Part shown: in pieces, positions 55,326 through 58,701 of the stretch
How the letters are laid out: each line of letters opens with the position of its first letter
Position numbering within the stretch: the first letter of the stretch is position 1
Source: Bacillota bacterium
Lineage (GTDB): Bacteria; Bacillota; UBA5301
Assembly (NCBI GenBank): GCA_017656135.1
Contig: JACDOJ010000001.1
Coordinates: forward strand, 124,001 to 188,000
Direction of reading: 5' to 3'
DNA length: 64,000 nucleotides
Notes under the pieces: model-generated
The model's input: only the letters and a program-made list of their open reading frames with translations
Told to the model about the DNA's origin: nothing
Database searches by the model: none
Made by a program: the position numbers and the translations under genes

Positions 55326-55371
55326 AATCCCCTGGACAGACTAGTGCACGTAGTCTGGAGGGGATTTTTTT
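55326..55371 (+). terminator. Terminator-like hairpin containing the SD of the hydrogenase small-subunit gene
   Basis: AATCCCCT(GGAC)AGACTA-GTGCACG-TAGTCT(GG)AGGGGATT then T-tract ending in the TTG start codon. Confidence 0.65.
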
Positions 55372-56671
55372 GCTCACCCGGAGAGAATTTATCAAGGCAC
55401 TGATGACCATGGCTGCGGGAATGAGCATTCCTGCTTTCTGCAGCGAACTTCTGGCGGAAGCAGCCGGCAAACAGGGGAGGAAGCCAGTGGTAATCTATTT
55501 GGAGGCCAATACCTGTGCCGGGGACATAATGTCCCTGTTAAATGCCAAAGATCCCAGCCTAGACCGGTTCATTCAGGAAACGATTGATTTGCAATACCAG
55601 ACAACGCTGATGGCTGCGGAGGGGTCCCAGGCCGTCCAGTACATGTATAAATCTGCGGAGGAAAACTGGGGAGAATACGTATTAATCGTAGAGGGAGCGG
55701 TGTCCACCCGGGAAAACGGGAAGTACGGCATCATCGGTGAGCTAGCCGACGGCCCCCTTACCGGTCTCCAGGCAGTGCGGGACCTTGCTCAAGGGGCCAA
55801 GTATATTGTCCCCTTTGGGGTCTGTGCCTGTTACGGAGGCCAGTATGCCACACCTCCTAACCCCTGCGGCGCCAAGGGTGTTTCCGAGGTTATCGGCAGC
55901 AAGGACAGGAAGAAAGTGGTCAATGTTTCAGCCTGTCCGGGCCATCCTGAATGGCTGGTGGGTACCTTGACCCATCTGTTTGTCTACGGGATGCCCGACC
56001 TTGATCCGCACCGCCGGCCGAAGGTCTTTAACGGGAGGACCGTTCATGATCTGTGCCCGAGGCGGTCTTTCTTTGAGAAGGGAATATTCGCTTCAAAACC
56101 GGGTGAAAGGGGTTGTTTATACAAAATCGGGTGTAAAGGGCCGGTTGCCGGGTGTGATGTTCCCCTGCGGCACTGGAACACCTTTTACCATTGGCAGTGG
56201 GTGATCGGTTGTAATGTGCCCTGCATTGGCTGTACCGAACCTGGCTATCCTACTAAGATGATGCCTTTTTACCGTCACCTCCCTGATATAAGGGTTTTCG
56301 GCAGTTATACTGCCAGCACAGCGGTGGCTAAAGCCGTGGGGGCAGGGACTGGTTTGGCTATCGCTGGCCATTTGGGAGCATCTCTGCTCTCAGGGAGGGT
56401 CAGGGAAAATTACCGAAAGTTAAAGGAGCCGTTACCCCCACTGCCCCCTGAACCGACACCCTCGGCGGATTTCACCGGTAAACAGGGTCCCCTTCAATAT
56501 GAGTTCGGTGATTACCTCGGCGAACCGGATTTGCCCAGCGGAATTGACCGGGTCCCATCCGGACCTAAACACCCAAAACCCCTTTTCGGGAAAAAACTGA
56601 TCCAGAAAGAAGGACCTGATACAAAAGCCTCTCTTCTGGCCCGGCAGATTTCGAAGAAGTGGAAGGACTGA
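55370..56671 (+). CDS. [NiFe] hydrogenase small subunit, Tat signal, CxGD motif
   Basis: LTRREFIKALMTMAAGMSIPAF Tat-like signal; LEANTCAGDIMSLLN, GVCACYGGQYATPPNPCGA, SACPGHPEWLVGTL, HDLCPRRSFFEKG, CLYKIGCKGP, CIGCTEPGYP. Confidence 0.92.
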   Translation: MLTRREFIKALMTMAAGMSIPAFCSELLAEAAGKQGRKPVVIYLEANTCAGDIMSLLNAKDPSLDRFIQETIDLQYQTTLMAAEGSQAVQYMYKSAEENWGEYVLIVEGAVSTRENGKYGIIGELADGPLTGLQAVRDLAQGAKYIVPFGVCACYGGQYATPPNPCGAKGVSEVIGSKDRKKVVNVSACPGHPEWLVGTLTHLFVYGMPDLDPHRRPKVFNGRTVHDLCPRRSFFEKGIFASKPGERGCLYKIGCKGPVAGCDVPLRHWNTFYHWQWVIGCNVPCIGCTEPGYPTKMMPFYRHLPDIRVFGSYTASTAVAKAVGAGTGLAIAGHLGASLLSGRVRENYRKLKEPLPPLPPEPTPSADFTGKQGPLQYEFGDYLGEPDLPSGIDRVPSGPKHPKPLFGKKLIQKEGPDTKASLLARQISKKWKD

Positions 56672-56674
56672 ACC

Positions 56675-58087
56675 ATGGCCCAAAAGATAATTAGCCCTTT
56701 GACAAGAGAAAATGTACCCATAGCCATCCAGGTAACGGTAGATAAAGGTGTTATCACCGATGCTAAAATGATGGCCCGCAACATGCGGGGCTTCGAATAT
56801 ATGCTGAAGGGGCTGGCCCCTTCTGATGCTCCTTACTTTACCGAGCGCATCTGCGGTATTTGTTCCACCGCTCACGCTGTTGCCTCCTGCCTGGCTTTGG
56901 AGAACGCCACCTCCCATGACCTAACCAAGAACGGGGTCCTGATCAGAAATATCCTTTTTGTCGGCGATATCCTCCAGAATCACCTGCGCCATTTCTACCT
57001 TTTGGCGGTACCGGATTACGTAGACCTCCCGGAGAAACCGCCTTGGACACCCCGGAACAGATTTCCGAACTCTCTGCCCAAACCGGTCAACGAGCGCATC
57101 GTCAAAAACTATTTCCGGGCCTTTGAGGTTTCCCGGGATGCCCACACGTTGACCGCAATTATGGGCGGTAGGGCCCCCCACCAGTGGTCCATGCAGCCCG
57201 GGGGAGCCACCATCCAGCCTACAGCCGAAAGAATAATGCGGGCCAAGGCTGTAGTCGAACGTATCAAGGCCTTTGTCACCCAAGATTACCGGGAAGATGT
57301 GGAGGCACTGGCAGAGGCCTATCCGGAGTATTTTGAGTACGGGACCCGTCCTCGCAACTACATCGCTTACGGAACACTTCCTAACCCGGATAAACCCCAT
57401 GAATTCCTGCAGCCGCCTCAGGTGGTTCTGGAGGGGAAGGTGGAAGCACTGGAGGTTAAGAACATCACTGAAGATATCCGGTTTTCCTGGTACCGTGGGA
57501 AGAATCAGGTTTCACAGGGCCCATTTTATGCGAAACCGCCGGAGCCGGACCGGTCGAAACAGGAGGCGTACAGCTGGATTAAGGCTGTGCGGTATAAAGG
57601 CAGAGCCTGCGAAGGCGGGCCCATTGTCCGCGCCTACTTGGCCGGAGGTTACCGCCGTACCAATGCCACCTGGGATAGACACCTGGCCAGACAGTGGGAG
57701 GCAGCTAATTACGTGGAAATGGTGTTGAAGTGGATTTCCCAGCTGAAAGAAGATGAACCGGCATACAATCACTGGGAGACCCCAGATTCCGCCAGGGGGG
57801 AAGGGCTGATTGAATCCATGCGCGGACCCCTGGGACACTGGGTAGAGATTGAGGGCGGACGGATCAAAAACTACACTGTTATCACTCCTTCGGTTTGGAA
57901 CATGGGACCTAGGGCCGGACCCACTGATTTAGGCACAGTCGAGGAAGCCTTAATAGGCACGCCCATAAAAGATATCGAGAATCCAGTGGAAATAGGCCGG
58001 GTGATTAGGGCCTTTGACCCTTGTTCTGCCTGTGCGGTGCACGTGATTACCCCTACCCGGAAGCTTGAACCCATCAGGGTCGTGTGA
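56675..58087 (+). CDS. [NiFe] hydrogenase large subunit
   Basis: RICGICSTAHAVASCLALENA (L1) and DPCSACAVH (L2) plus C-terminal extension VITPTRKLEPIRVV. Confidence 0.95.
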   Translation: MAQKIISPLTRENVPIAIQVTVDKGVITDAKMMARNMRGFEYMLKGLAPSDAPYFTERICGICSTAHAVASCLALENATSHDLTKNGVLIRNILFVGDILQNHLRHFYLLAVPDYVDLPEKPPWTPRNRFPNSLPKPVNERIVKNYFRAFEVSRDAHTLTAIMGGRAPHQWSMQPGGATIQPTAERIMRAKAVVERIKAFVTQDYREDVEALAEAYPEYFEYGTRPRNYIAYGTLPNPDKPHEFLQPPQVVLEGKVEALEVKNITEDIRFSWYRGKNQVSQGPFYAKPPEPDRSKQEAYSWIKAVRYKGRACEGGPIVRAYLAGGYRRTNATWDRHLARQWEAANYVEMVLKWISQLKEDEPAYNHWETPDSARGEGLIESMRGPLGHWVEIEGGRIKNYTVITPSVWNMGPRAGPTDLGTVEEALIGTPIKDIENPVEIGRVIRAFDPCSACAVHVITPTRKLEPIRVV

Positions 58088-58701
58088 GGGTTGTTCCGAT
58101 GTTTAGCGAAGATAAATATACCGGCTTCCCTCCAGAGGTGCGGATAACACACAATATCCACATGGTCTCCTTTATTCTCATTGCCCTGACGGGTTTTTAC
58201 ATTCACTATCCCATTAATATTCTGGGATTCACAGGGGTTAAGTGGGTCGGTTTTGCCCATACGGTCTCCGCTATCTTCCTGTATGCTTCCTTCGTGTTCC
58301 GGCTGTATTACGCTTTTGCCACCGGGAATTATGTCAACTTTAAGTTCCTACGGGAGGATAGCGCCAAGACTTGGGAGTGGCTGAAGTACTACTTATTTTT
58401 AAGTAAAGAAAAACCTGTCAAGCGGAAATACAACCCCCTGCAGAAACTTACGTATTACATTTTTATCGTGCTCCTTATCTTTCAGGCCTTCACCGGTTTG
58501 GCCCTGCTGGAGACCGCGGCCTTCGGCTGGGTCATGGCACTGTTCGGCGGGAGACAAATGGTCCGGACCATTCAATTTTTTCTGGCGGTAGCTCTCTCCA
58601 GTATCGTCGCCGTCCATCTTTACCTGGTATTTACCGCTGCGGATCAGCGCCAACGGCAGACTATGTTTGCCTTGGGCCGGATCAGGGAACGAGAGCAGTA
58701 G
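58084..58701 (+). CDS. Hydrogenase-associated b-type cytochrome
   Basis: Four-TM ORF with membrane His residues (HNIHMVSF, AHTVSAIFLYASFVFRLYY, VAVHLYLVF); overlaps large subunit gene. Confidence 0.82.
   Translation: MRVVPMFSEDKYTGFPPEVRITHNIHMVSFILIALTGFYIHYPINILGFTGVKWVGFAHTVSAIFLYASFVFRLYYAFATGNYVNFKFLREDSAKTWEWLKYYLFLSKEKPVKRKYNPLQKLTYYIFIVLLIFQAFTGLALLETAAFGWVMALFGGRQMVRTIQFFLAVALSSIVAVHLYLVFTAADQRQRQTMFALGRIREREQ

Follow-up and report, generated by a model that had tools for sequence, protein, structure and literature searches.

A probable respiratory [NiFe] hydrogenase from a Bacillota lineage that mostly lacks a proximal-cluster cysteine and the proton-gate glutamate

An aspartate at one of the cysteine positions of the proximal iron-sulfur cluster raises the question of what kind of [NiFe] hydrogenase carries it and what it does there. 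Such a site was pointed out in a first-pass annotation of a 64,000 nucleotide stretch of a Bacillota genome (GCA_017656135.1, contig JACDOJ010000001.1, positions 124,001 to 188,000; hereafter the window). We analyzed the operon, its relatives and the other hydrogenases of the same genome. The best explanation is a periplasmic, membrane-anchored enzyme that oxidizes H2 and is composed of HydSL and cytochrome b; it would belong to a divergent lineage of Bacillota [NiFe] hydrogenases close to HydDB group 1a. We assign this reading a probability of about 0.6.

The three genes hydS, hydL and hydC (Table 1) form an intact operon and all of them were matched by Pfam and NCBIfam. A Tat-exported, cytochrome-b-linked enzyme had been annotated, and this is borne out by the TRREF motif and the recognition of hydC; Tat export of the small subunit together with a b-type cytochrome is the architecture of group 1. 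The large subunit has a peptide extending past DPCxxCxxH, as expected for maturation by a HycI protease. We found no dedicated protease or hyp genes adjoining the operon; a single HycI gene lies elsewhere, and the genome also encodes one HypD and a TatC. Among the window ORFs no kinase or sensor gene lies within the operon. Purifying selection acts on the genes, with pN at about 0.2 and a saturated pS at about 0.8. The gene order lysS-azlCD-hydSLC, followed by ychF and pdxS, is common to the related genome G002. In G002 three copper-handling genes separate hydC from ychF; following the operon (L046:2694-5673) we noticed genes for a repressor resembling CsoR, a P-ATPase of the copper type and a heavy-metal-associated protein.

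Table 1. Positions of the hydrogenase genes, ligand sites and 5' hairpin in the window.
Feature	Position	Strand	Remarks
Hairpin 5' of hydS	55326..55366	+	Shine-Dalgarno sequence of hydS within the 3' arm; subsequent T-run reaches the TTG start codon
hydS, [NiFe] hydrogenase small subunit	55370..56671	+	433 aa, TTG start, Tat motif TRREF, C-terminal helix 316-341
CAGD, proximal positions 1 (Cys49) and 2 (Asp52 replacing Cys)	55514..55525	+	Assigned by alignment
CAC, proximal ligand 3 (Cys152) and extra Cys154	55823..55831	+	Cys154 has a counterpart in HucS GDCACFGG
Cys189, proximal ligand 4	55934..55936	+	
Distal ligands His226, Cys229, Cys249, Cys255	56045..56134	+	All present
Proposed medial ligands Cys262 (usually at 264), additional Cys281, Cys285, Cys288	56153..56233	+	
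hydL, [NiFe] hydrogenase large subunit	56675..58087	+	C-terminal extension past His456
L0 motif RENVP replacing RIEGH	56705..56719	+	Asn13 where the proton-gate Glu is usual
Cys60 and Cys63, Ni/Fe ligands	56852..56863	+	Intact
Asn102	56978..56980	+	At the position of HyaB Asp118
Met382-Arg383	57818..57823	+	Canopy Arg retained, adjacent Pro replaced by Met
Asp448, Cys450, Cys453, His456, with the second Ni/Fe pair and the site of maturation cleavage	58016..58042	+	Intact
hydC, b-type cytochrome (Ni_hydr_CYTB)	58084..58701	+	Five His

The hairpin in front of hydS has an MFE of -20.7 kcal/mol (z -2.4). A hairpin of the same structure with different loops is present in G002 (z -4.7) and G001, whereas the genome holds no close second copy and no Rfam family was found at 50-64 kb of the window. 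RNAalifold reported no compensatory pair because the G001 loop was misregistered by MAFFT; by eye, one C-G pair of the hairpin is A-T in G001. The element could be an attenuator, a translational switch or a terminator for the upstream azlCD genes.

At the proximal cluster our alignment agrees with the annotated replacement of CxxC by CAGD: Asp52 (codon GAC, 55523-55525) aligns with the second proximal cysteine, and the remaining ligands Cys49 (TGT, 55514-55516), Cys152 and Cys189 are intact. We rejected Cys154 as a substitute ligand; it lies two residues past ligand 3 and is shared by HucS, whose cluster is still [3Fe-4S]. The site is bracketed by two solved structures, AH with CDGD and Huc with CSGN. 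All three Huc clusters are [3Fe-4S] (PMC10017518), and engineered proximal variants C81D and C81N were active (PMC4070099). The family to which the window belongs has three genera, which carry CAGD, CTGD and CTGN, thus D or N in every genus, and the close sister G001 has Asn. The 3Cys-1Asp site that had been proposed therefore stands as far as the position of the aspartate is concerned, which is that of AH. Ligation of a [4Fe-4S] cluster by this aspartate is not safe to assume from sequence, because Asp and Asn alternate even within one family and the Asn form in Huc is [3Fe-4S]. Since the two residues are swapped between sisters and the first cysteine is missing in some relatives, a [3Fe-4S] or labile cluster is no less likely than a [4Fe-4S] cluster bound by Asp.

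We then looked at the second proximal position in 96 relative loci, which were fetched by similarity in searches seeded on the lineage and are therefore not a random sample. We found 46 CxxN, 29 CxxD, 11 SxxN, 4 CxxE, 1 CxxH and 5 CxxC, so that 91 of the 96 loci have a residue other than cysteine (Asn, Asp, Glu or His); CxG[D/N] accounts for 75. Judged from these sequences, most members of a large lineage of Bacillota have CxG[D/N]. The pairing of a 1h-like motif with a respiratory architecture, which had seemed unusual, is thus the ordinary state of a clade. The annotation had allowed for the motif being standard in a known subgroup. The first half of this largely holds, but no subgroup description matching the lineage was found in the open-access literature. 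Among the hosts are Clostridium, Bacillaceae, Paenibacillus, Desulfosporosinus, Sporomusa and Heliobacterium; numerous Bacillota MAGs carry it as well, besides one record labelled Calditrichales. The lineage appears widespread and overlooked, with mostly anaerobic Bacillota as hosts and many strict anaerobes among the relatives.

Not all relatives share the export signal. In Heliobacterium, Desulfoscipio and others (L105, L107, L110, L114, L119, L121, L122, L124, L127) the motif reads DSGDNN, the first proximal cysteine is gone and no Tat motif is present. A Tat motif is also missing from Clostridium and Bacillaceae loci such as L071, L078, L082 and L084, some of which continue with HycI protease and cytochrome b5 genes; in L084, from C. 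magnum, the protease and cytochrome b5 genes follow hydSL. The lineage therefore includes probable cytoplasmic enzymes.

The medial cluster also deviates from the usual pattern. Position 264, the usual first medial ligand, is Val in the window, and a cysteine is found two residues before it at 262. An extra cysteine at 278 or 281 accompanies the shifted C262 in 12 of 12 alignment rows, at least two of which are refetched duplicates of the same locus, and is found in 15 of 113 unshifted rows. This constant pairing suggests a medial cluster held by four cysteines (262/281/285/288), possibly a [4Fe-4S] cluster resembling that of [NiFeSe] enzymes. The additional cysteine of VIGCNVPCIGC, which the annotation had remarked on, is real and corresponds to Cys281; it most plausibly serves as a ligand of the medial cluster. 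Searches with the small subunit recovered both [NiFeSe] and standard [NiFe] small subunits; the confidence of its structural model, made without cofactors, drops near the cluster region.

The main interest of the enzyme lies in a feature of the large subunit that was absent from the first-pass annotation. Both CxxC pairs that bind Ni and Fe are present (RICGIC, DPCSAC), while the glutamate of the L0 motif, which gates proton transfer and corresponds to Glu28 in HyaB of E. coli, is missing. In an alignment with 73 relatives its column contains Ser in 44, Asn in 12, His in 12 and other residues in a few; all 13 reference sequences have Glu and all three group 1h sequences have Val. The Asp118 column is Asn in 72 of the 73 relatives and the proline preceding the canopy Arg is replaced by Met or Thr in most of them, whereas the Ni/Fe ligands, the canopy Arg and Asp448 are kept in nearly all. 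The changes of Asp118 to Asn and of Pro to Met also alter the second sphere of HydL. The predicted fold is well defined (pLDDT 90, pTM 0.90), with [NiFeSe] large subunits as best matches (TM about 0.9).

The Glu-to-Cys proton relay is regarded as a nearly universal feature of [NiFe] hydrogenases, with the glutamate long considered essential for proton release from the active site; laboratory variants deprived of the relay are mostly inactive or severely impaired. AH, an H2-oxidizing hydrogenase, also lacks the glutamate (RIVGS in 5AA5), and its loss is therefore compatible with a hydrogenase. In D. fructosovorans no activity is left after an exchange of Glu to Gln (Dementin 2004, cited in PMC3325256), and the loss could therefore mean a slow or repurposed enzyme. 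For T. roseopersicina a milder effect of changing this residue is described and an alternative Arg/Asp/His route proposed (PMC3325256). We found no report of glutamate loss in the window clade in the open-access literature.

Loss of the proximal cysteine and loss of the glutamate go together. Among the paired loci both residues were lost in 88 and kept in 4; in three the cysteine was lost and Glu kept, and in a single locus (L062) Glu was lost and the cysteine kept. The latter (L062:5693-8106, G017:C14) combines a normal small subunit with CNGC and a large subunit that is degenerate, with RCSGMD and without DPCxxC, and which by its sequence is a [NiFe]-hydrogenase-like protein stripped of metal ligands. 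In a sample of 399 genomes of the phylum, 29 of the 30 best large subunits lacked both residues and had MRG or FRG, with the window itself and already-seen loci counted among the 30; the remaining one has CTGC and keeps RIEGH and APRG.

The genome of the window itself encodes three group 1 small subunits: that of the window (CAGD), a paralogue on contig C1 (CSGN) and one on contig C13 (CSGC). The C13 enzyme has RIEGH and APRG and is accompanied by a protease and HypD. The C1 paralogue (L041:7177-9707, G000:C1) lies at a distance of about 66 kb from the operon in the window and keeps the glutamate; in its cleavage site Gln replaces the His (DPCNACAVQ), likewise in L055. In the small-subunit tree all CxG[D/N] sequences, this paralogue among them, fall into one group with a support of 100/99; in the large-subunit tree the sequences without Glu do so with 95/84. 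Since the paralogue has lost the cysteine and kept the glutamate, the cysteine was likely lost first and the glutamate later. This order falls short of proof because the large-subunit tree places the paralogue group loosely (AU test for joining it to the clade, p 0.27). When group 1h was forced into the clade, the small subunit rejected the grouping (AU test, p=0.017) and the large subunit did not (p=0.24), which would favor convergence for the paired losses in the clade and in group 1h.

Comparison with known systems places the lineage nearest to periplasmic [NiFe]/[NiFeSe] enzymes of HydDB group 1a, which give the best sequence and fold matches and share the Tat and cytochrome b architecture. 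The 1a-type sequences L059, L061 and L190 keep the proximal CxxC, RIEGH with its glutamate and mostly APRG or AARG, and none of these three features is left in the window clade: the window reads CAGD at the proximal site and RENVP at L0. Several 1a-type relatives (G040, G138, G300, G330, G364 and others) contain a single in-frame TGA and are probably selenocysteine [NiFeSe] enzymes. In acetogenic Clostridium, [NiFe] hydrogenases without Tat signals, some of them adjoining a cytochrome b5 gene, are assigned to HydDB 1a (PMC9431212); a word search of that article returned no mention of "proximal" or "glutamate". As L084 resembles these enzymes in its gene set and in having no Tat motif, HydDB probably files the window lineage under 1a too.

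Group 1h (C. necator AH, 5AA5) shares with the window CxGD (CDGD in AH), the missing glutamate, the missing proline before the canopy Arg (AVRG where APRG is usual) and a shifted medial cysteine. It differs in having no Tat motif and no cytochrome b gene, and its neighbors NifU, DUF5947 and DUF6084 are absent among the window ORFs. The AH and window small subunits are 27% identical in the fold alignment. Group 2a Huc (7UTD/7UUR) has likewise lost the second proximal cysteine and has a cysteine two residues past ligand 3 (CSGN and GDCACFGG in HucS, CAGD and GVCACYGG in the window), but the sampled group 2 relatives keep the glutamate (RVEGD), form a separate clade and have no cytochrome b gene nearby. 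A plasmid hydrogenase of Sulfobacillus acidophilus combines a CDGN small subunit with a cytochrome b gene as in the window type; it differs by keeping RIEGH and APRG and groups with Hyd-2/Hyd-1. The extra cysteines of the O2-tolerant 6-Cys group 1d (CTCC and GTCASWGC in Hyd-1/MBH) are not found here, where the sites read CAGD and GVCACYGG, and groups 1l and 1m have gene sets unlike that of the window (PMC9561532). Judged from trees that covered group 1h, group 2 and Hyd-1/Hyd-2 sequences and from the open-access literature, the lineage apparently represents a large undescribed group of [NiFe] hydrogenases without the proton-gate glutamate.

How would such an enzyme work? H2 would be split at the intact Ni(Cys)4Fe site. 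Electrons would pass from a proximal cluster that is not capped by cysteine (Asp52) to a medial cluster, probably with four cysteines, to a standard distal cluster, and from there via cytochrome b to the quinone pool. As the glutamate is missing, the proton needs a different way out from Ni, which may consist of water and the small polar residue replacing Glu, or of a canopy Arg/Asp/His path. The intact Ni/Fe ligands, canopy Arg and cleavage site together with Tat export and cytochrome b argue for a working, H2-oxidizing respiratory enzyme. Alternatively, the matured [NiFe] protein might not turn over H2 but act in sensing it, scavenge it slowly or use another substrate. The clade-wide loss of the glutamate and of Asp118 speaks for this, as does the presence in the genome of two further group 1 enzymes that keep Glu. 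We consider it unlikely, as group 1h has lost the same glutamate and the window type comes with an export signal and a cytochrome b partner and has no sensor or kinase in its operon. Several normally invariant residues are altered together, as might happen in a decaying gene or through sequencing error, but the frames are intact, selection is purifying and identical changes occur in independent genomes, so that this explanation is ruled out for practical purposes.

The remaining alternatives concern the proximal cluster. It may be [3Fe-4S] as in Huc; loss of the cysteine would then remove one Fe, raise the relay potential and favor H2 oxidation; this is compatible with the respiratory reading preferred here. 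The HucS pattern and the free exchange of Asp and Asn speak for it, as does an SxxN subclade with Ser in place of the first cysteine too. Against it stand the aspartate of the window, a reported ligand in group 1h, and the distant position of group 2a in the trees, and we regard it as a tentative but serious candidate. A 1h-like 3Cys-1Asp [4Fe-4S] cluster conferring O2 tolerance appears improbable: the likeness to AH in CxGD, glutamate, canopy and medial cysteine is countered by the rejected common small-subunit origin, by Asn in the sister G001 and by the ratio of 46 CxxN to 29 CxxD in the clade. AH-type neighbors are missing, and neither COX1 (haem-copper oxidase) nor cytochrome bd was found in the 99%-complete genome. 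The O2 tolerance that had been read from the aspartate thus has no support, the more so as many relatives are strict anaerobes.

A proximal-cluster aspartate should therefore not be taken as a sign of O2 tolerance, and HydDB "group 1a" probably hides functionally distinct enzymes. We see a little less than an even chance that the lineage is a large natural group of active group 1 enzymes without the Glu gate, in which the proximal cysteine was lost first and in which the same pair of residues disappeared apparently independently of group 1h. If true, relay potential and proton exit route would be evolutionarily coupled, and the glutamate would be inessential to H2 oxidation by [NiFe] enzymes. 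Living genomes show a graded series, from CxxC with Glu through CxGN with Glu, as in the paralogue of this genome, to CxGD/N without Glu, which makes the mechanistic question testable by comparison of natural enzymes.
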